45,985 nt of DNA from Desulfotomaculum sp. (GTDB taxonomy: Bacteria; Bacillota; Desulfotomaculia; Desulfotomaculales; Desulfohalotomaculaceae): the NCBI GenBank assembly GCA_017656165.1, contig JACDOL010000009.1, positions 1 through 45,985 of the forward strand, written 5' to 3'. The notes under the pieces were generated by a model. That model was not told where the DNA came from. It did not search any database and saw only the letters and a program-made list of their open reading frames with translations. How positions within the stretch are numbered: position 1 is the first letter of the stretch; each line of letters starts with the position of its first letter. Position numbers and translations under genes: made by a program. Below, piece after piece: positions 137-17,969 of the stretch.

Positions 137-462
137 TAGTTTAACAGGTGCCCTCGGAAGAGGGATAATAGGGAATCAGGTAAAAATCCTGAGCGGTCCC
201 GCCACTGTAACCGGGAAGCAAGTCGACAGTATGCCACTGTCCCGCCCAGCACTCAATCCAAAGGTTATTTCTATTTCGCATATATAGTGTTACTTATTAC
301 TAAATCAGTCAGGATGAAATCGATAAGCTTTTTACTAGATTGAGTGCTGGGCGGGTGGGAAGGCGCCGACAAGCAATGACCCGGAAGCCAGGAGACCTGC
401 CTGTTAAATGCGTCACACACAACCTACGAGGATAGGGGGTGTGGAAGTGTAGCAACCAGCAA
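137..462 (+). promoter_or_regulatory. Cobalamin (B12) riboswitch, class I type
   Basis: Conserved blocks appear in the family's order: AGGTGCC (about 146), AATAGGGAA (168-176), GCGGTCCCGCCACTGTAA (193-210), TGGGAAGGCGCC (356-367) and ATGACCCGGAAGCCAGGAG followed by ACCTGCC. The aptamer core is roughly 144-408. A terminator follows at 485-515, so the likely mechanism is transcriptional: adenosylcobalamin binding favours the terminator and switches off the DUF2162-ExbB-DUF2149-CobN operon. The GCCACTG and TGGGAAGGC blocks are separated by an unusually long, perfectly paired arm (241-355). Confidence 0.93.
241..355 (+). repeat. 18-bp perfect inverted repeat forming an extended arm inside the riboswitch
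   Basis: Bases 241-258 (CCCGCCCAGCACTCAATC) are exactly complementary to 338-355, with about 79 AT-rich bases between them. The arm sits in the variable loop between the GCCACTG and TGGGAAGGC blocks of the cobalamin aptamer, so it is an expanded peripheral helix, or a small palindromic insertion that left the core folded. The AT-rich interior has no recognisable gene. Confidence 0.85.
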
Positions 463-484
463 TGCAAAACATGCACTTTACAAA

Positions 485-515
485 CCTCTGCCCAGAGCAG
501 AGGGTAATTTTTTTT
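485..515 (+). terminator. Intrinsic terminator of the cobalamin riboswitch (expression platform)
   Basis: CCTCTGC (485-491) pairs with GCAGAGG (497-503) over a five-base loop, followed by a run of eight T (508-515). It lies between the aptamer and the first gene, as expected for a B12 riboswitch that works by premature termination. Confidence 0.9.
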
Positions 516-531
516 ACAGAAGGTCGTTTAA

Positions 532-639
532 ATGAAAAAAATCCCATTTTTGCTTGCATTCTGTTTTGTTTTTATACTAATTTTATCAAAGGCTTTTTGC
601 TATTGGGTTGGAGCGTTTTCTGGGCAGCTATCAGTTTAA
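532..639 (+). CDS. Possible 35-residue membrane or signal-peptide-like small protein
   Basis: An ATG at 532 is preceded by AGAAGGTCG at good spacing, directly after the riboswitch terminator, so it would be the first ORF of the derepressed mRNA. It encodes MKKIPFLLAFCFVFILILSK, a positive start plus hydrophobic run like a signal peptide or single membrane helix, then AFCYWVGAFSGQLSV and stop. Immediately downstream a different frame encodes another hydrophobic helix (SLIFLIFGIRALDKIMKNN), so this may instead be the first half of a small two-helix protein broken by a frameshift near 610-640. I do not recognise a family. A leader peptide or a decayed gene are equally possible. Confidence 0.35.
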   Translation: MKKIPFLLAFCFVFILILSKAFCYWVGAFSGQLSV

Positions 640-714
640 TCTTCCTGATCTTTGGGATTAGGGCTTTAGACAAAATCATGAAAAATAATCCCAGCACAAA
701 GGGGGTGATTTCCT

Positions 715-1413
715 TTGTTTTTAATAAAAGGCACATTGTCACTGGCTATACTGATCTTGAGTTTAAAGACCGGTTTAATCCTGGGGGCTTCCTGGTTAAG
801 CAAAAAAAGTATCCTCTCGGTTTCAACAATTTTGGGGACAAGCCTATATGTTATTATATGGGTTTTTAAAGGGTACCAGGAGCAGTTGGTTTATTTTTTG
901 GATAATTATACTTTTTTAGGGGCATGTCTCATATCTTTGCTGTTGATATATTTGGGTTTGCAAATACCTGAATTTAAAAAAGAGGACGAGGATAAGGGCA
1001 AAAAATATTTATACGTTTTTAGTTTTTTACCCTGTCCCTTTTGCATGCTTGCCCTTGCTTTTTCAGTGTTTCTTTTTGCACCCGTGTTGGAAATGGATGT
1101 TTTGCAACTGGGCAAGAGGATGGGATTAATTTTTGCAATCATGATATTTGCAGTAAGTATGATTGCGAGAAAAATGATCGCGCTGTTAAAAGTAGAGCCA
1201 ATGGTAATTTTTAACAACATACTTCTGTCATTAGGGTTTATTACTCTTCTTTTTGCATTTACAGTTCCCAACATTGTTCAGGCGGTAAATATTGGATTTA
1301 ATCCGTTGGTGATTAATTCACCAAAACTTCTGGGTGTTTTGACTATAGGAATAATTGGCTTGATTTTGCTGGGATATTTCATTTACCAAAAAAATCAATA
1401 CTTTAGGTGGTGA
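715..1413 (+). CDS. DUF2162-family six-helix membrane protein (putative transporter)
   Basis: A 232-residue protein of about six hydrophobic helices. The N-terminus, with LAILILSLKTGLILGASWL, follows the family pattern of a helix ending in K(T/A)GL, and a PCPFC motif (about residue 103) lies at the start of the third helix, reminiscent of metal- or thiol-handling membrane proteins. The start is a TTG at 715, chosen because AAAGGGGGTGA ends six bases before it; upstream ORFs in other frames run through the terminator. To my knowledge this family is found mainly in methanogens next to MotA/ExbB, DUF2149 and CobN genes, exactly the order seen here. The riboswitch in front implies a role in cobalt or corrinoid supply; the substrate is unknown. 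Confidence 0.8.
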   Translation: MFLIKGTLSLAILILSLKTGLILGASWLSKKSILSVSTILGTSLYVIIWVFKGYQEQLVYFLDNYTFLGACLISLLLIYLGLQIPEFKKEDEDKGKKYLYVFSFLPCPFCMLALAFSVFLFAPVLEMDVLQLGKRMGLIFAIMIFAVSMIARKMIALLKVEPMVIFNNILLSLGFITLLFAFTVPNIVQAVNIGFNPLVINSPKLLGVLTIGIIGLILLGYFIYQKNQYFRW

Positions 1414-1418
1414 CAAAA

Positions 1419-2054
1419 ATGATCATTCCTGGTTCGGAACATTTGACCAGATTGCTGCACATTATTGGCCAAAGTTTATTAATACCGTGTATTTTGGGAT
1501 TACTTTCATTCCTTATATTTTCTTTTGTTGAATTGGGAGGGTTTACGGCTGAGATTAGAATCCGTAAGAGAGAGAAGTTTTCTCAGTGGGAAGAAATATT
1601 GCAACAAATAATAGAAACGACAAATAAATTACAACTGATTAAAGAAAGCGATTTGCCTCTAATTTTCAAGGAAATAGCATTACATTTTTTAAATATAAAA
1701 TACGTATCCCGGGACATCAAAAAAGTTATGGCACGTAAGTTACTGGAACAGCAAGAATTCAAGATGATGAAATCCTTAGAAAAAACAGAGATTATAGCAA
1801 AATTAGGTCCTATATTGGGTTTAATAGGTACCCTCATTCCCTTGGGACCGGGGTTGGCTGCCCTTAGTCAGGGTAATGTTAACGAACTTGCCAAGGCTAT
1901 TATGGTGGCATTTGATACTACGGTTGCTGGTCTGGCGGCAGGGGGAATTGCTTACTTTATTACCAAAATACGCCGGCGTTGGTATGAAGAACAGCTAAGC
2001 GACCTCGAGGCGTTACTGGAAGTACTGGTGGAAGTGAAGGAAGATGTGAGGTGA
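1419..2054 (+). CDS. MotA/TolQ/ExbB-type proton channel protein
   Basis: About 211 residues with the ExbB/TolQ plan: one helix near the N-terminus (about residues 8-38), a long charged cytoplasmic segment, then LGPILGLIGTLIPLGPGLAAL and a second long hydrophobic pair (FDTTVAGLAAGGIAYFITKI). The Gly/Pro/Thr-rich helices match the channel-forming helices of the family, which use the proton gradient to drive a partner protein. I prefer ATG 1419, five bases after AGGTGGTGA, over the GTG at 1407. It overlaps nothing essential and follows the DUF2162 stop by five bases. With no flagellar genes and no outer membrane expected, its partner is probably the DUF2149 protein and the CobN-like protein downstream. 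Confidence 0.85.
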   Translation: MIIPGSEHLTRLLHIIGQSLLIPCILGLLSFLIFSFVELGGFTAEIRIRKREKFSQWEEILQQIIETTNKLQLIKESDLPLIFKEIALHFLNIKYVSRDIKKVMARKLLEQQEFKMMKSLEKTEIIAKLGPILGLIGTLIPLGPGLAALSQGNVNELAKAIMVAFDTTVAGLAAGGIAYFITKIRRRWYEEQLSDLEALLEVLVEVKEDVR

Positions 2055-2060
2055 AGGAAG

Positions 2061-2399
2061 ATGCTGTGCCGGAAACAAAGACGGTTGCTGTCATCGACAG
2101 AAGAGCCAGATCCTCTTAGTGGGCTGGCAAATATGGTTGATGTGATGCTGGTTTTTGCATGTGGCTTAATAGTGATGCTTGTACTTTCCTGGAATTTGCA
2201 AAACATTTTTTTCGCTAGGGTTACTCCGCAAGAGAAGGAAAAGATGCTTCAAGTTATTCAGCGGGTAGTAGATATAGAAAAGGGAAAGGAATTAAAGGAA
2301 CTTCCAAACTTTAGTGAGGGTGGCGGTTCCGGTTATCAAGAAATGGGTACTGTCTATAAAGATCCAAAGACAGGAAAGTTAATTTTGATTGAAAATTAA
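2061..2399 (+). CDS. DUF2149 protein, ExbD-like single-helix partner of the proton channel
   Basis: A 112-residue protein with a short basic cytoplasmic start, DPLSGLANMVDVMLVFACGLIVMLVL spanning residues about 19-44, and an external tail of about 65 residues that ends GTVYKDPKTGKLILIEN. An aspartate at the entry of the only helix, as in VDVMLVF, is what ExbD/TolR proteins use to carry protons. The gene starts six bases after the channel gene with a GGTGAAGGAAG ribosome site, so the two are probably translated together. It is shorter than typical ExbD and the external domain is different; the assignment to DUF2149 comes from this helix and the gene order. Confidence 0.75.
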   Translation: MLCRKQRRLLSSTEEPDPLSGLANMVDVMLVFACGLIVMLVLSWNLQNIFFARVTPQEKEKMLQVIQRVVDIEKGKELKELPNFSEGGGSGYQEMGTVYKDPKTGKLILIEN

Positions 2400-2417
2400 T
2401 AGGGAGGTGTAAGAATA

Positions 2418-5400
2418 ATGAAATTTGCCAAAGTACATTTTTATATGATAACTAATTTACTGCTGCTCTTTAGCTTTTTAAGTATTTTTGTCTTTGTGCC
2501 GGCCGGTTCTGCTGAAGAAATAAACGATGGTCTTAAAATTGTTATAGTTTCACACGAAACCAACGCCCTGGTAAATGCCAACCAGCAGTTGAAAGAAGAA
2601 GGCTACAGCTTTTCTTTGAAAATATTTAATCCCAAATATGCGGAAGACGAAGAAAGAAAAAAGGATTTACAACAGGCTTTGGCTCAGGCGGATATCATCT
2701 TGCTGGACATGATTGGGAATAAGACGTTGAATGCACTTTCTCCAATGTTTTCCGATTTGAAAGAACAAAAGATTTTAGTTACACGAAGTGTAGATGTCTC
2801 TTCCGAAATACCCCGGGCAGATACTTCCTGGGACGAAGCTTTGGCGCCGTATTTCAGTTATGGTGGTGTAGAAAATATGCGGCGGCTTTTACTTTACCTG
2901 TTAAATAATTTTGGAGAAATTAATGTCTCGCAAAAATTGGAACCGGTGGTACTGGAAGGAAGCTTTGCCTATCATCCCGCTGCCGATAAAGTTTTTAATA
3001 CTTATGAACAATACAAAAGCTGGTATGAAGAAAGCGGTAAATATCAGCCTGGTGCCCCGTGGATTGGTATTTTAACGTACGATAGTTCTTATAAAAATGC
3101 AGATTTCAAAATGTATACGGATCTTCTACAGGAATTGGAGAAAAATGGGGCCAATGCAATATTAGTATTTGCCGGTGGAGATAATATCAAGGCAGTGCGT
3201 GATTTTTTCATGGATGATGGCAAGAGCAGAATTGATTGTTTGCTTGCAGCCACGTACTTTAACTTCGTCTATGGGAGACCTGAAGAAGGGATAAAGCTCT
3301 TTCAAGAAATGAACATACCTATCATGACACCTATCTACAGCCGGCAGCTCGATAAATGGGAAAATGATATTTCCGGTATTTCCGACGATGTGCCCTGGCA
3401 GGTTGCCTTTCCGAAGCTGGAAGGAAGAATTGAACCCGTGCTTATTGGAGGTTCTAAGGTAGTTGGGACAGATAAAGATACGGGTGCAATAATAGAACAA
3501 AAGGTGGCCATACCCAACAGGGTAGAAAGGATTGCCAAAAGGGCAATAAACTGGGCCAAACTGCGCCATAAACCCAATCATGAAAAGAAAGTGGCACTAA
3601 TATATTACAATTACGGCGGGGGAAAGGATGGTATTAGTGCATCCTATCTCAATGTAGAGAGAAGTATTGCCGAAATTTTAAAGTCTCTTAAAAAGGAAGG
3701 CTATACTGTAAAAGAAAGTTTGCCGTCAGAAGAACTTTTGGAAAAGATGCTGGCCAGCGGGAGAAATGTGGGAAGCTGGGCACCCGGTGAATTGGAAGCA
3801 CTTGTTCAAAATGGAGCAATAACTATACCCGTGGAGCAGTATTTAAAGTGGTTTGAGGAGCTTCCCCAAGAACTGCAGGAAAAGGTTGAAGATGAATGGG
3901 GTCCTGCTCCGGGAAATATTATGGTATATAATAATGAACTGGTTTTACCGGGAATTATGCTGGGTAATGTCTTTATTGGCCCGCAACCAATGCGCGGCTG
4001 GGGGGATGAACCGGATAAAATAACCCACTCGCCCACACTGCCGCCAACCCACCAGTATCTGGCCTTTTATTTCTGGCTCCAGAAGGAGTTTAAAGCTGAT
4101 GCAGTAGTACATGTGGGTACCCACGGGACTCTGGAATGGCTGCCCGGAAGAAGTGTGGGGCTCGGCAAGAATGACTGGCCTGATGTATTGCTGGGCAATA
4201 TACCCAATATTTATCCATACATTGTCAACAACCCGGGAGAAGGTACCCAGGCAAAGCGGCGGGGCTATGCTGTGATAATTGACCACTTGACGCCCCCCAT
4301 GGTTAAACCGGAACTATATGGCGAGTTGGAAGAACTGATGATGCTATTAAGCAATTATGAAGTGGAAGAAGCCAAAAGTGATACAAAAAGGCTAGAACAG
4401 CTGAAGGAAGAAATACTTGAAAAAATAAAAAGTAATAACATTCATAACGCACTGGGACTGGATTTGGTAAATACAGAATTTAGCCGGATTTTTTCACAGG
4501 TTGAGGAATATCTTTTTGAAATGAAAAGTGAATTAATGCCGTACGGGTTGCATACCTTTGGTAAGCCTCCCCGGGATGATTTGTTGGAGGAGATGACACG
4601 TTCCATAGTGGAATATGACCCGGAAACTCGTAAAGATGCTGCTGGTGAAATTAAAAATAACCTGTACATGACAACCCGTGAAATTGACAATTTACTTAAG
4701 GCCCTGGAGGGACAGTATATTGAACCCGGTCTTGGCAGGGACCCGGTACGTATTCCGGATGTAATGCCCACAGGAGCAAATTTTTTCTCTTTTGATCCGC
4801 GAACCGTGCCTGATAAAGCTGCCTGGGAAACGGGTAAAAAAGCGGCTGACCGCTTGCTTGAAAATTTCCTGGCGCAAAAAGGCAGGTATCCTGAAAAAGT
4901 TGGGATAGTACTCTGGGCTACGGAGACGATGCGAAGCCAGGGAGAAACGGTGGCAATGATACTTCGCCTGATTGGTGCTGAACCAAACTGGGATAAAAGG
5001 GGACGGGTGAAGGGTGTTAATATAGTACCCATTGAAGAACTGGGTCGTCCCCGGGTGGATGTGGTAGTAACCATGTCGGGGCTGTTTCGTGATACCTTTT
5101 CTTACATGGCTGAAGTACTGGATGAGGCCTTGAGAAAGGTTGCCTTACTGGAGGAGAAGCCACAGGACAACTGGGTCAGGAAACACTTTGCGGAAGATTT
5201 GATTTATTATCAGCAGCAGGGGTTAAGCTATGAAGAGTCCAAGTTCCTGGCCGGTGCCCGTATTTTTAGTGAGGCTCCCGGTACCTACGGAACTGGTGTG
5301 GCAGAAATGACTGAGGCTACCAGTGCTTGGGAGGACAGCTCAGAGCTGGCTGAAACTTATCTGTCGCGCATGTCATATATTTACGGTAAAAATGCCTACG

Positions 5401-6401
5401 GGAAAAAGGCTGATACTGTTTTTCAAAAGACGCTAAATGGCATAGAAGTTGCGACTCAGATTAGAGACTCCCTGTGGGGAGTACTCGACAATGATGATGT
5501 ATATCAGTACCTGGGAGGACTGGCCCTGGCTGCGGAAGAGGTTTCCGGCAAAAATGTTTCTATTTATATTAGCAATACCCGGAATGCCAGAAATCCAAGG
5601 GTAGAGTCCATAAAACGTTTTTTAAGCACCGAACTTGCTACCCGTGTTTTCAATCCTGACTGGATAGAAGGGATGCTTAAAGAAGGTTACTCAGGATCCA
5701 CTACTATTAACAAGCATATCGGGCATCTTTTTGGAGTGGATGCCACAATGAAAGCGGTTGATAACTGGCAGTGGCAGCAGGTGGCTGAAACTTTTGTATT
5801 TGATGAGAATATCAGGCAGCAACTGACGCCCCATTCATTACAATCACTGATAGGCTGGACCGTGGAGGCAGCGAGGCGCAAAATGTGGGATGCAGACGAA
5901 GAAACTCTAAGTAAGTTGGCTGATACTTATATACAAAGTGTTATTAAATACGGAGTAGTTTGCTGTCACCATACCTGTGCCAATATAGTATTCAACCAGT
6001 GGATAGCACAACATGCAACATTGTCAGCTAATAAAATCGATGAGTTTGCAAAAACCTTTCAAAAAGCCACTAATAATAGTTTAAACCTTATAAAGGTAAC
6101 AGTACATGAGGAGGGTATTGAACCGGTATCCGAAATAAAACCTAAGAAAAAAGCTATCAAAAATAAATTGTTATCATTGGAAAAGGAAAGCAAAGAGGCT
6201 ATACAAGTAGGGGATACGGAAGAACAGAACAAGCCAAAACCAAAAGCATATGAAATAAAAGTAGTTGAGAAGGAAGAGAGTTCGGCCACATCTGAAAGTA
6301 GTGTAACCTTCTATGCTTTACTTGGTGCATTCCTATTTGCTTTAATTTTTGTTGCTGGCTATGTAATCTTCAATAATAAAAAAAGTAGACGAAGTATTTA
6401 G
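2418..6401 (+). CDS. Secreted, membrane-anchored CobN-like cobalt/magnesium-chelatase large subunit
   Basis: A 1327-residue CobN/ChlH-family protein. Family signatures include HVGTHGTLEWLPGRSVGLG (about residue 565), YPYIVNNPGEGTQAKRR (about 600) and ARIFSEAPGTYGTGVAEM (about 945). Cytoplasmic CobN inserts cobalt into hydrogenobyrinate diamide with CobS and CobT. This one differs: it opens with a signal peptide (residues 1-33, ending PAGSA-EE) and closes with a Lys/Glu/Ser-rich linker, one helix (about 1296-1318) and a basic tail, so the catalytic body should sit outside the membrane. AGGGAGGTG precedes the ATG by about eight bases. It is the last gene of the riboswitch operon, with no AAA+ partner nearby. 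I infer metal chelation, extraction or corrinoid handling at the cell surface, powered by the ExbB/DUF2149 pair. Confidence 0.88.
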   Translation: MKFAKVHFYMITNLLLLFSFLSIFVFVPAGSAEEINDGLKIVIVSHETNALVNANQQLKEEGYSFSLKIFNPKYAEDEERKKDLQQALAQADIILLDMIGNKTLNALSPMFSDLKEQKILVTRSVDVSSEIPRADTSWDEALAPYFSYGGVENMRRLLLYLLNNFGEINVSQKLEPVVLEGSFAYHPAADKVFNTYEQYKSWYEESGKYQPGAPWIGILTYDSSYKNADFKMYTDLLQELEKNGANAILVFAGGDNIKAVRDFFMDDGKSRIDCLLAATYFNFVYGRPEEGIKLFQEMNIPIMTPIYSRQLDKWENDISGISDDVPWQVAFPKLEGRIEPVLIGGSKVVGTDKDTGAIIEQKVAIPNRVERIAKRAINWAKLRHKPNHEKKVALIYYNYGGGKDGISASYLNVERSIAEILKSLKKEGYTVKESLPSEELLEKMLASGRNVGSWAPGELEALVQNGAITIPVEQYLKWFEELPQELQEKVEDEWGPAPGNIMVYNNELVLPGIMLGNVFIGPQPMRGWGDEPDKITHSPTLPPTHQYLAFYFWLQKEFKADAVVHVGTHGTLEWLPGRSVGLGKNDWPDVLLGNIPNIYPYIVNNPGEGTQAKRRGYAVIIDHLTPPMVKPELYGELEELMMLLSNYEVEEAKSDTKRLEQLKEEILEKIKSNNIHNALGLDLVNTEFSRIFSQVEEYLFEMKSELMPYGLHTFGKPPRDDLLEEMTRSIVEYDPETRKDAAGEIKNNLYMTTREIDNLLKALEGQYIEPGLGRDPVRIPDVMPTGANFFSFDPRTVPDKAAWETGKKAADRLLENFLAQKGRYPEKVGIVLWATETMRSQGETVAMILRLIGAEPNWDKRGRVKGVNIVPIEELGRPRVDVVVTMSGLFRDTFSYMAEVLDEALRKVALLEEKPQDNWVRKHFAEDLIYYQQQGLSYEESKFLAGARIFSEAPGTYGTGVAEMTEATSAWEDSSELAETYLSRMSYIYGKNAYGKKADTVFQKTLNGIEVATQIRDSLWGVLDNDDVYQYLGGLALAAEEVSGKNVSIYISNTRNARNPRVESIKRFLSTELATRVFNPDWIEGMLKEGYSGSTTINKHIGHLFGVDATMKAVDNWQWQQVAETFVFDENIRQQLTPHSLQSLIGWTVEAARRKMWDADEETLSKLADTYIQSVIKYGVVCCHHTCANIVFNQWIAQHATLSANKIDEFAKTFQKATNNSLNLIKVTVHEEGIEPVSEIKPKKKAIKNKLLSLEKESKEAIQVGDTEEQNKPKPKAYEIKVVEKEESSATSESSVTFYALLGAFLFALIFVAGYVIFNNKKSRRSI

Positions 6402-8658: not shown

Positions 8659-9291
8659 ATGGGAGGTAAGGATGAAAAACAGGTAAAAGCCATGCTGGAA
8701 GCAGCCAAAGGTACAAGTTACTACGGCCCGGTACTGCTGGCGGTAACAACCGGCATGCGCCGAGGAGAAATACTGGGCCTCAGGTGGCAGGATGTAGACT
8801 GGGAAAATAAAGCACTGTTGATAAGGCAGACCATTCAATATACACCGGAACAAGGCATCATATTCAAGCAGCCTAAAACCGCCGGCAGCAGAAGGGCAGT
8901 AAAGATTTCTTCTACCATTATTGAATTTCTCAAAAAGCACAAGGTAGAGCAGAACAAAATAAAACTGCTGCTGGGCCCGGGTTTTTATGAAGATAACGGG
9001 CTGGTTTTCTGCCAAAACAACGGCAGGCCCATGCACCCGGATTCCGTTTCCAGCTGGTTCCCGAAGTTCATGGAGAAAAACGGGCTGCCTAAGATAAGGT
9101 TCCACGATCTGCGGCACACCCATGCCACTTTGCTTTTAAAGCAGGGCATTCACCCTAAAGTGGTGTCAGAACGCCTGGGCCACGTGGGAATTTCTATTAC
9201 CATGGATATTTACTCCCACCTGCTCCCAGGAATGCAGGAAGAAGCGGCAAATAAAATTGATGAGGTGGTTTTGGGTGATGAAGTTAAGTAG
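8659..9291 (+). pseudogene. Truncated phage/ICE tyrosine integrase (catalytic domain only)
   Basis: The 210 residues form a complete tyrosine recombinase catalytic domain: Arg in TTGMRRGEILGLRW, a Lys in PKTAGSRRAVK, HDLRHTHATLL, LGHVG and the nucleophile in MDIYSHLLPG. Family members carry an arm-binding and a core-binding domain (about 150 residues) in front; here stop codons lie directly upstream of ATG 8659, and that ATG overlaps what looks like a ribosome site, so the N-terminus is lost. The gene ends about 100 bases from the 3' end of tRNA-Thr, the usual position of an integrase at its attachment site. I infer an element that inserted here and was later deleted. Confidence 0.8.
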
Positions 9292-9349
9292 TATGGTTAA
9301 TTATTTTTAATTTGGGCAACGATTTGCATAAAATTATAATTTTTGCATA

Positions 9350-9378
9350 AAAGAAAAACACCGCAAATGCTTGCGGTG
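9350..9378 (-). terminator. Intrinsic terminator of tRNA-Thr
   Basis: CACCGCAA (9359-9366) pairs with TTGCGGTG (9371-9378) around a four-base loop; on the minus strand it is followed by TTTTTCTTT. It lies just after the tRNA 3' end and could also serve the integrase remnant from the other side. Confidence 0.75.
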
Positions 9379-9391
9379 CCTGGTTTTTTCC

Positions 9392-9466
9392 TGGAGCCAG
9401 GGATGGGATTTGAACCCACGACCTACGCATTACGAGTGCGTTGCTCTACCACTGAGCTACCCTGGC
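9392..9466 (-). tRNA. tRNA-Thr (anticodon CGT)
   Basis: On the minus strand the gene starts GCCAGGG and ends CCCTGGC-T-CCA, giving a full seven-pair acceptor stem and an encoded CCA. The D arm GCTCAGTGGTAGAGC, the anticodon arm ACGCA-CTCGTAA-TGCGT and the T loop TTCAAAT are all standard. The seven-base anticodon loop presents CGT, which reads the threonine codon ACG. Its 3' end faces the integrase remnant, as expected for an attachment site. Confidence 0.96.
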
Positions 9467-15599: not shown

Positions 15600-16457
15600 T
15601 TAGCTTTCTTCGTTAACTTTATACCTCCTGGCAATTCCCTGGGATAACCTGTCTATTATGATGGCCAGGATAACAATTCCCAGCCCAGCTTCAAATCCCC
15701 GGGCAACATCTATCCTGTTTAATGAGATAAGCACTTCCATTCCCAGGCCCTTGGCACCAACCATAGAAGCAATAACTACCATTGCCAGTGCCATCATGGT
15801 AGTCTGGTTAATACCAGCCATTATGGTGGGCATGGCCTGGGGAAGCTGCACTTTAGAAAGTATCTGCCAGGGAGACGAGCCAAATGATGCCGCCGCCTCC
15901 ACCATCTCCTTGGAAACCTGGCGAATAGCCAGGTTTGTCAACCTGATTACCGGGGGTATGGCATAGACAGTGGTAGCAAAAACGGCCGGAACTTTACCCA
16001 TGCCAAACAGCATCATAGCTGGAATTAAGTACACCATGCTGGGCATAGTCTGCATGAAATCCAGTACCGGCCTCATAAAGGATTCTGTTAACCTACTGTA
16101 AGCCATTAAGATTCCCACAGGAATTCCCAGTAAAATGGAAATAAGAACAGAAGTCAATATAATAGCTAAAGTGTACATCATCAGATCCCAGTAGCCAAAA
16201 GTACCGATTAAAAACAATAATAGTGGAAACAGCACTGCTGCAAGCTTGGAGATATAACGCCAGCTTAAAATGAAAACAGCAGCAATCACCAGCCACCAGG
16301 GAAGCCAAAGCAAAAAGTCTTCTACGTAAATCATAAACCACAAAATTACACTGCTGACGGCTTCAAATATACCGCCCAGGTTGGTGGTAAGCCAATCTAC
16401 AATTTTCTTTACATAAATCCCCAGTTCAAATCGCCATTCTTCAGGAAAATTACTCAT
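15600..16457 (-). CDS. opuAB: Glycine betaine/proline ABC transporter permease (OpuAB/ProW)
   Basis: A 285-residue membrane protein of ProW type with about eight helices. The EAA loop that contacts the ATPase is seen as MVEAAASFGSSPWQILSKVQLPQAMPTIMAGI. The GIPVGILMAY and TMPSMVYLIPAMMLFGMG stretches are characteristic of the betaine permeases. It is encoded between the binding protein and the ATPase, separated from the former by an intercistronic hairpin. Confidence 0.92.
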   Translation of the reverse strand: MSNFPEEWRFELGIYVKKIVDWLTTNLGGIFEAVSSVILWFMIYVEDFLLWLPWWLVIAAVFILSWRYISKLAAVLFPLLLFLIGTFGYWDLMMYTLAIILTSVLISILLGIPVGILMAYSRLTESFMRPVLDFMQTMPSMVYLIPAMMLFGMGKVPAVFATTVYAIPPVIRLTNLAIRQVSKEMVEAAASFGSSPWQILSKVQLPQAMPTIMAGINQTTMMALAMVVIASMVGAKGLGMEVLISLNRIDVARGFEAGLGIVILAIIIDRLSQGIARRYKVNEES

Positions 16458-16519
16458 TATTACCAGCTGCAGGTGCAGCCTTTTTCACCTCTCTGCCTAA
16501 ATAATTAGTCAACCCAAAT

Positions 16520-16547
16520 AGGTTGGCCAGTTTATACCAGCCAACCT
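16520..16547 (-). other. Intercistronic stem-loop between binding protein and permease genes
   Basis: AGGTTGGC (16520-16527) pairs with GCCAACCT (16540-16547) around a 12-base loop. There is no T run after it on the minus strand, so it is more likely an mRNA-stabilising or partial-stop structure that lets the binding protein be made in excess. Confidence 0.55.
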
Positions 16548-16558
16548 AATTAATAAAC

Positions 16559-17578
16559 TTACTGGATAGCTGCCTTAACTTTCTCTGCTGCTTCATCAGG
16601 TACCCATTTAGTCCATAGATCTTCATACTTTTTCAAGAAGTATTCTGCTGCATCTTCAGGCGCAGCTTTGTTGTCCTGCATGTAAGCCAGGCAGTCAGCA
16701 GTTATTTCTGCACTTGTTTGGTAGTGGCTTAAAAATTCAACAACTTCAGGTGCTTTTTCTTTTAACTCGGGTGGTACTATAATAGTCAACCTTTGGGATG
16801 GAAAATCACATTTATAATTATTTTCCCATTTTTCATCATCATACGGTGCCACTTTCAACAGTGTAAGATCGTATTTACCACTGATCCAGGTGGGCTCCCA
16901 GTAATAACCAACCCAGGGTTCTCCGTTTTTAACAGCTGTGGTAAGTGAAGTGGCCAGTGCAGTACCAGAGCCCGGCTGGAAGTAATTAAAATATTTATCC
17001 AGGCCAAATTCCTTTACCTGGGCAGCTAAAACCGTATCAGCAAACCAGCCCGGGATAGAACCATAAATCCTGCCCTTGTCCGGGTCCTCTGGGTCTTTAA
17101 ACAGCTCCCAGTACTTAGGAAGGTCATGTATTGACTCCAAGTCCGGAGCCATGGGCTCTATCCCTCTCTCTGGATCCCCTTTAATTACGTATGTAGGAAC
17201 GTATAGTCCCTGCTTATTGTCGTCATAGTTTACAGATACTTCCAATACTTCGCTGTTTTCAACTGCTTCATTGTACTTGTCGATAATGTTGCCTGACCAC
17301 ACTTCCATATAAACATCAATATCGCCATTTTTAACTCCTTCAAAGGAAGATGTCTCAGAACCAGGCATAACATCTGTTTTATAACCGTAACCATGTTCTA
17401 AAATCTTCATTGCGATGGCATTATGTACCCGAATACTGTCCCAACCGGCATCAGCAAAGACAAGGGTTTTCTTAACTTGCCCATCCTTACCTGGCCCACT
17501 GCAGGCTGCAGCCACCAACGCCAGGGTGATAAGTAATGAAACAGCAAAAACCAGCTTCGCTTTCTTAAAGAAACTCAC
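16559..17578 (-). CDS. opuAC: Glycine betaine ABC transporter substrate-binding lipoprotein (OpuAC/ProX)
   Basis: About 339 residues. The N-terminus KKAKLVFAVSLLITLALVAAAC is a lipoprotein-type signal with the cysteine at about residue 26, so the mature protein is tethered outside the membrane. The body is of OpuAC/ProX type, with Trp-rich segments that form the aromatic box for quaternary ammonium groups (ADAGWDS, MEVWSGN, GYYWEPTWISG). I chose GTG 17578, about nine bases after GGGGGAG; the open frame extends upstream. First gene of its operon, preceded by operator 3, a c-di-AMP riboswitch, its terminator and a dispersed repeat. Confidence 0.92.
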   Translation of the reverse strand: MSFFKKAKLVFAVSLLITLALVAAACSGPGKDGQVKKTLVFADAGWDSIRVHNAIAMKILEHGYGYKTDVMPGSETSSFEGVKNGDIDVYMEVWSGNIIDKYNEAVENSEVLEVSVNYDDNKQGLYVPTYVIKGDPERGIEPMAPDLESIHDLPKYWELFKDPEDPDKGRIYGSIPGWFADTVLAAQVKEFGLDKYFNYFQPGSGTALATSLTTAVKNGEPWVGYYWEPTWISGKYDLTLLKVAPYDDEKWENNYKCDFPSQRLTIIVPPELKEKAPEVVEFLSHYQTSAEITADCLAYMQDNKAAPEDAAEYFLKKYEDLWTKWVPDEAAEKVKAAIQ

Positions 17579-17614
17579 TTCACTAATCTCCCCCTCATTA
17601 TTAATTACCGCCAA

Positions 17615-17692
17615 GATATTTACACTCCGAAGACACGCCGGCACATATAATAGACCGAATTTGCCGGCTGCCGTTTTCTCTGGTAAATAACT
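17615..17692. repeat. Dispersed repeat, copy 1
   Basis: Shares the core GGCTGCCGTTTTCTCTGG and flanks AATTTGC and GGTAAATAACTTGG with copy 2. Its ends GATATTTACACT and GGTAAATAA are imperfect inverted repeats. It lies in the 5' untranslated region of the opuAC gene, between the riboswitch terminator and the ribosome site. Confidence 0.65.
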
Positions 17693-17713
17693 TGGATGTT
17701 TCTGGTAGTGTAA

Positions 17714-17742
17714 ATAAAAAACCGCCCACGGCAGGGGCAGTT
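17714..17742 (-). terminator. Intrinsic terminator of the c-di-AMP riboswitch
   Basis: Minus-strand RNA folds AACTGCCC against GGGCGGTT (one G-U pair) around a six-base loop, followed by TTTT. It is placed between the aptamer and opuAC, as needed for ligand-controlled termination. Confidence 0.8.
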
Positions 17743-17814
17743 TTTACCATATAAAAATATGACCATAATTTTAGTGTAAACTTAGTTTAAAACGGTACAC
17801 TACGGCCTAACTTG

Positions 17815-17937
17815 ACTGCTCCCTTGCCACGCTTACGAGGTTAGCTGCCGGGTTCGGGCTGCAGGGTAGCCCTACCTTACGGATTCACCCCAAAAAATGG
17901 TTCCCCCGCTCCTGTATTACAGGATTCAGCGCATCCA
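17815..17937 (-). promoter_or_regulatory. Cyclic di-AMP riboswitch (ydaO-yuaA type)
   Basis: Minus-strand blocks in family order: GCGCTGAATCCTG, AGGAGCGGGGGAACCA, GGGGTGAATCCG, then AGGGCTACCC, CAGCCCGAACCCGGCAGC and TAACCTCGTAAGCG. This RNA class turns off potassium and osmolyte uptake genes when c-di-AMP is high. It precedes a terminator (17714-17742) and the glycine betaine transporter operon, a normal target. Confidence 0.93.
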
Positions 17938-17969
17938 GGAAATATCTTATTATGAAATTAATATATATC

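Follow-up and report, generated by a model that had tools for sequence, protein, structure and literature searches.

Four genes at the start of the stretch of Desulfotomaculum sp. DNA analyzed here (the window, 45,985 nucleotides in all) raise the question of what a predicted exported relative of the CobN chelatases does next to a proton-channel pair in a host of Gram-positive type. The genes, designated T, U, V, and S, are co-directional and lie behind a cobalamin riboswitch and a terminator. Analysis of this operon and of related modules indicated that T-U-V-S very likely serves B12-repressed acquisition of cobalt or corrinoids. The best single guess at its mode of action, to which we give a probability of roughly 45%, is B12-repressed, proton-driven acquisition outside the cytoplasm, in which S would remove cobalt and hand it over to T.

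The T-U-V-S operon and its B12 riboswitch

All features of the operon are on the plus strand. A promoter-like −35/−10 pair (TTGGCA-18-TATAAT, positions 69 to 98; 11 of 12 matches in a consensus scan), which by itself is no sign of function, lies ahead of a cobalamin (B12) riboswitch aptamer at 129 to 418 (RF00174, 118.3 bits, E value of 3.5e-29). An intrinsic terminator consisting of a 7-bp stem (485 to 503) and a T run is present at 485 to 515, and the stretch from 405 to 512 folds better than shuffled sequences (z score of −3.9). With an RF00174 aptamer upstream in cis, the operon belongs to the B12 riboswitch regulon, with a predicted response to the ligand, and the terminator is a putative expression platform that is probably coupled to the aptamer for attenuation. 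A small conserved gene between the riboswitch and T was considered and rejected, as the open frames there have no common sequence.

T (715 to 1413) encodes a 232-amino-acid DUF2162 membrane protein (PF09930, 137.6 bits) with about 6 to 8 predicted hydrophobic helices and a TTG start codon preceded by AAGGGGGTGAT. U (1419 to 2054) encodes a proton-channel subunit of the MotA/TolQ/ExbB family with three hydrophobic helices (PF01618, 47.3 bits), V (2061 to 2399) encodes a DUF2149 protein, an ExbD-like single-helix partner (PF09919, 74.7 bits), and S (2418 to 6401) encodes a predicted extracytoplasmic CobN-like (de)chelatase of 1,327 amino acids (PF02514, CobN-Mg_chel, 1,177.6 bits). U, V, and S are separated by 5 to 20 bases, and the operon ends at S, the following gene lying on the opposite strand. 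The anatomy proposed in the initial annotation of this DNA, from riboswitch and terminator through DUF2162, ExbB-like, and DUF2149 genes to an exported and anchored CobN-like protein, all tightly spaced, was reproduced with RF00174, Pfam, and hydrophobicity analysis. Its end coordinate (6401) stands, and its start (137) falls inside the aptamer, whose first base is 129. Elsewhere in the window, the region from 8659 to 9466 may be the remnant of an integrated element, with a phage integrase fragment (210 amino acids) close to a tRNA gene (9395 to 9466, minus strand), and a c-di-AMP riboswitch (17814 to 17941, minus strand) precedes a glycine-betaine (OpuAC) ABC transporter (15600 to 17941).

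A search of 398 genomes from the phylum yielded 8 with DUF2162 above the family cutoff. Adding named loci found in another scan gave a set of 14 DUF2162 modules in distinct Bacillota or Actinobacteria genomes. T, U, V, and S were all present in 13 of them; in the other (L072, from genome G125), at a contig end, V was not found. A B12 riboswitch, often two in tandem, was located upstream of all 14 modules, and a T-U-V-S module with two riboswitches is also carried on plasmid pGLOV01/pSZ77 of Trichlorobacter lovleyi. Riboswitches preceded none of nine U/V loci lacking DUF2162 (Fisher P value of 1e-6, a figure that ignores shared ancestry). Because genomes with the module contain only 2 to 10 B12 riboswitches each, chance co-location can be excluded, with the proviso that the cases are non-independent through shared ancestry. 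T is tied to B12 control. This co-occurrence upholds the predicted B12 control of the operon type. A further statement in the initial annotation, that the same gene set occurs in methanogens, was borne out for the DUF2149, DUF2162, and CobN families, as seen in family-search controls only.

The window genome (2.29 Mb, 169 contigs, 99.9% complete), from the same phylum as Carboxydocella thermautotrophica, encodes a largely complete anaerobic route of B12 synthesis with CbiK, CbiD, CbiC, CbiA, and CobT, together with one CbiM, one BtuC-like permease, and two B12 riboswitches. S is the sole CobN. In agreement with the absence initially supposed, no AAA+ chelatase partner was found in the window genome, Carboxydocella, or G118. 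The only AAA+ chelatase-like match in the window genome was a weak one of 29.7 bits, of a kind present in 13 of 14 control genomes, and a TIGR02442 search of the same genome returned nothing above this ubiquitous weak level. The anaerobic CbiK/CbiD route, the single CobN, and the lack of an AAA+ partner argue that S is not the biosynthetic cobalt inserter of the CobNST type.

S and its relatives

Relatives of S in the PDB are ChlH (4zhj), HmuS (9d26), and CobN (7c6o). In its chelatase core, S is a homolog of CobN and ChlH, with a full-length match to PF02514 and the HxGxHG motif. The known CobNST and ChlHID class I chelatases are cytoplasmic, AAA+ driven, and without anchors, whereas S has exactly two strongly hydrophobic segments, one (residues 9 to 27) in a predicted signal peptide with AGSA/EE (2418 to 2513) and one (residues 1300 to 1318, followed by KKSRR) forming a predicted C-terminal membrane anchor (6315 to 6371). 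Hydrophobic N- and C-terminal segments occur in nearly all U/V-linked or riboswitch-controlled S proteins (in this comparison, the S of L041 is truncated by a contig end and has a start that was annotated too early), and the C-terminal segment is missing in cytoplasmic relatives. In a tree of 40 sequences, S and 12 riboswitch-controlled relatives formed one clade and HmuS fell in another, each with a support of 100, and cytoplasmic CobN, BchH, and AAA+-linked proteins all lay across one fully supported branch from S. Signal peptide, anchor, and tree position are consistent with the extracytoplasmic location first predicted for S. The accompanying generalization that CobN chelatases are cytoplasmic and AAA+ powered is false for the family as a whole, given HmuS and BtuS with HmuU/V (PMC12583661, PMC10100974, PMC6460266), and a periplasmic CobN relative beside an ExbB-like pair is already known.

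HmuS is the structurally solved periplasmic haem dechelatase of the Bacteroidota hmuYRSTUV operon (PMC12583661). The window operon shares with it homologous S, U, and V genes that lie side by side (HmuU is ExbB-like and HmuV is DUF2149); in both, S is predicted to be exported and anchored, and HxGTHG is kept. The S motif is HVGTHG (residues 565 to 570, 4110 to 4127), in which His569 aligns in the 40-sequence alignment with His538 of HmuS, the catalytic residue (PMC12583661). Unlike hmuYRSTUV, the window operon has four genes, a B12 riboswitch, no HmuY, no TonB receptor (there is no plug domain in the genome), and DUF2162 where hmu has HmuT. HmuT was rejected as a DUF2162 protein, having no Pfam match and a profile probability of 9%.

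The family relationship to HmuS could mean that S is a haem dechelatase of the same kind that stands by chance under a B12 riboswitch. This is very improbable. S has no His at the column of the HmuS haem ligand His254 (HGR), and the equivalent of Met79 is one residue off. The active-site His1209 of HmuS, in LSLDHxxEFMGG (DHVYEFMGG), is also missing: the S clade has Asp there (DD..QYLGG), as in CobN, and the window S reads LDNDDVYQYLGG (residues 1023 to 1034, 5484 to 5519). In addition, every DUF2162 module has a B12 riboswitch, and the modules neighbor CbiMNQO, BtuFCD-like genes, and cobT/bzaF. The residue at position 1209 is a hint only; several UVS proteins with no assigned substrate show DD. 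His at this position was rejected as a porphyrin marker, being found in HmuS and BchH but also in the Azospirillum protein that has a NikR neighbor.

Closer in regulation are the operons of BtuS, described as a third CobN type (PMC6460266), and the Hmu-like operons of Bacteroides for which upstream B12 riboswitches are reported (Rodionov 2003, cited in PMC6460266; B. fragilis NCTC 9343, PMC10100974). As far as BtuS is defined in the citing papers, these operons share with the window a CobN-like protein outside CobNST under a B12 riboswitch, and differ in their Gram-negative hosts with TonB receptors.

Beyond the chelatase core, and absent from the known class I chelatases, S carries CCHHTC (residues 1182 to 1187, 5961 to 5978), a putative metal or thiol site. 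In the 40-sequence set, this motif was present in all 13 members of the S clade, took the form CCDHTC in T. lovleyi, and was absent from the other 26 sequences. In every module in which both proteins are readable, it is found together with PCPxC in T (P106 to C110, 1030 to 1044). PCPxC is invariant in 14 T sequences, including that of T. lovleyi, and sits at a predicted helix break in the AF2 model of T (mean pLDDT of 79). A fold search with this model gave no PDB match under an E value of 0.001, comparison with CcdA/DsbD gave no match above noise, and no mention of DUF2162 was found in open-access papers, which is weak evidence.

The presence of both Cys motifs in every T-containing module is also what would be expected if T and S made up a redox unit, a relay of thiols or electrons by which Co(III) corrinoids are reduced on the outer side of the membrane before uptake or demetallation, and the NADH-dependent activity of HmuS (PMC12583661) implies that a reductant is needed somewhere. 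We regard such a relay as unlikely, since T does not resemble CcdA/DsbD above noise, and since the CGHTTC motif of the Runella S, which occurs with a NicO-like nickel transporter that has HAxxxDH and no CPxC, points to metal binding. T is at present an unproven candidate for a metal carrier.

Other CobN relatives showed features of their own. In Bacillota AAA+-type relatives (L122, L123, L125, L127, and L129), a triplet or pair of Cys residues (GCCC or GCCG) takes the place of the Asp-Asp of CobN and the Asp-His of HmuS. In Carboxydocella (L131), a second, longer exported CobN-like protein (1,644 amino acids) that belongs to a different branch and lacks CCHHTC lies directly behind the module. 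Short CobN fragments (about 465 amino acids, C-terminal part only) occur beside ABC ATPases, U, and V in L053 and L061, with a predicted solute-binding protein downstream; a Cu_amine_oxidN1 domain was typed in L053. A contig of HGW-Firmicutes-8 (L035/L122) has three AAA+-linked CobN genes, an Opp-type ABC transporter, and a U/V pair beside DUF3344/SLH proteins. It was rejected as a case of an AAA+-linked S with U/V, the CobN being of the cytoplasmic type and the U/V pair adjoining the DUF3344/SLH proteins. No S relatives were found in viral contigs.

The U/V pair and the protein it serves

U contains the conserved stretches GPxxGLxGTLIPLGPGL and AFDTTV, an ExbB-type TM2/TM3 signature. The single helix of V (residues 25 to 43) contains Asp27 (2139 to 2141) in an ExbD-like N..VDVMLV context, at least 90% conserved in 20 V sequences, and we take this residue to occupy the position of the proton-carrying Asp of ExbD. 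The U family and the transmembrane Asp of V are shared with the ExbB-ExbD, TolQR, and MotAB stators; in contrast to these, V is DUF2149 rather than PF02472, with an outer domain that differs from ExbD, and the window genome has no TonB-dependent receptor. V was rejected as an ordinary ExbD, as it matches DUF2149 only, with a profile match confined to 12 residues around DVMLV. The model of V was poor (pLDDT of 64).

In the Bacteroidota hmu operon, HmuU and HmuV are drawn as the energizer of the outer-membrane receptor HmuR (PMC12583661, PMC10100974). The window host, initially described as Gram-positive, has no such outer-membrane receptors: Omp85 and the TonB-receptor plug were found in none of nine Bacillota genomes (the window genome and eight others with DUF2149), and the same searches were positive in diderm controls. 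U/V is kept beside S in genomes without TonB-type receptors. The cobN cluster of T. lovleyi pSZ77, in which the authors remarked on a CobN without CobST (PMC3403914), resembles the window operon in its riboswitches, T-U-V-S genes, PCPxC, and CCDHTC, and differs in its TonB receptors, its full ExbB-ExbD-TonB set, and an S on a different branch from the window clade. Its order is receptor-T-U-V-S-ExbB-ExbD-TonB-receptor, beside bzaF/cobT, and with an ExbB-ExbD-TonB set of its own in the cluster, U/V must be an additional, different pair. The separate TonB set of T. lovleyi and the nine Bacillota without Omp85 or plugs show that U/V cannot simply be an outer-membrane energizer.

Most likely, U/V drives S (or T), and we infer that S is probably the protein acted upon. 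All B12-type modules have T as their other membrane protein, which would suit a scheme in which U/V energizes T, with S as a passive binder or enzyme. We think this quite unlikely, as loci lacking DUF2162 still pair U/V with S (Hmu, Runella, Azospirillum, Pseudoalteromonas, and L043).

The pair is not specific to chelatases, since about twenty Bacillota loci contain U/V without an adjacent CobN, and their neighbors, where typed, are surface proteins with SLH, Big_2, Fn3_assoc, or DUF3344 domains. One stator with one surface protein seems to be the shared principle, and the window has S as its sole surface protein. As a second use of such stators, ExbB-DUF2149 pairs of Bacillota adjoin S-layer or surface proteins (SLH, Big_2, Fn3_assoc, and Cu_amine_oxidN1) in L045, L047, L048, L050, L054, and similar loci. 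In L047, a CbiQ/ABC_cobalt-type ECF set comes after the pair and its surface protein, together with a TrmO-FmdE fusion.

Substrate and direction of the pathway

At low B12, the riboswitch would let transcription pass the terminator, and S would be exported and tethered by its one C-terminal helix, placing a class I chelatase outside the membrane. U and V, as an ExbB/ExbD-type stator, would allow the proton gradient to drive the S cycle, in the role that the AAA+ motor has for CobN and ChlH. With HmuS as the model, the likeliest reaction of S would be to strip cobalt from corrinoids or other cobalt complexes outside the cell. CCHHTC of S may catch the metal and pass it to PCPxC of T, and T would either carry the metal inward or deliver it to CbiM to feed the CbiK pathway in the cytoplasm. 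The substrate would then be a cobalt tetrapyrrole, the direction removal, and the recipient T. Cobalt removal is supported by the proven dechelatase activity of HmuS, a relative of S (PMC12583661). Against it, G118 (81% complete), with the module, a BtuC-like permease, and no CbiM or CbiD found, suits corrinoid uptake better. We know of no enzyme precedent for cobalt removal from an intact corrinoid.

Alternatively, S could be a receptor or loader that captures external corrinoids without demetallating them, and U/V would make S release them to T or BtuFCD; cells lacking an outer membrane would thereby have the equivalent of a TonB step. We consider this rather unlikely, although L042, a single run of riboswitch-NrdJ-BtuF/D/C-like ABC-T-U-V-S in a genome with no CbiD or CbiM detected, and the TonB receptors on both sides of the module in T. 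lovleyi speak for it. Carboxydocella, which has CbiM, and G125 both carry the module with no FecCD-type permease over the cutoff, S retains the chelatase core and the catalytic HVGTHG, and L072 couples the module with CbiMNQO (riboswitch-CbiMNQO-riboswitch, with T-U-V-S behind), all of which argue against a loader. Because the downstream importer varies (CbiM in Carboxydocella, BtuC-like in G118), the importer content of these genomes does not decide between cobalt release and corrinoid loading.

The S-U-V core is also found with other partners: with HmuY, a receptor, and HmuT in a haem context; and, in two nickel-type contexts (L081 and L090), with hyp genes and the NicO-like protein in Runella and with NikR, a siderophore-type ABC transporter, and a TonB receptor in Azospirillum. 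Metal-specific partners around one core are consistent with a general tool for extracytoplasmic metal complexes, with a cobalt or corrinoid target here. New in the present module are the riboswitch tie of T, a U/V pair beyond an outer-membrane role, and a separate S clade whose CCHHTC travels with PCPxC of T. The open-access literature searched did not describe the module in hosts lacking an outer membrane, nor its strict association with the riboswitch or the pairing of CCHHTC with PCPxC; such absence is weak evidence.

The full reading, that a surface CobN powered by ExbB/DUF2149 pulls cobalt from corrinoids while a CCHHTC-to-PCPxC relay imports the metal, and by extension that HmuU/HmuV powers HmuS and not HmuR, is put forward tentatively. 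If right, it would provide the first function for DUF2162 and DUF2149 in the B12 branch and would explain CobN genes in anaerobes without CobST or the aerobic B12 pathway. The same stator with a chelatase in cells without an outer membrane, together with the separate TonB set in T. lovleyi, makes HmuU/V a candidate motor of HmuS rather than of HmuR, which would revise the current view of how the Hmu system strips haem in gut bacteria. Cobalt salvage from corrinoids, if true, would be a new way of competing for B12 in anaerobic communities.
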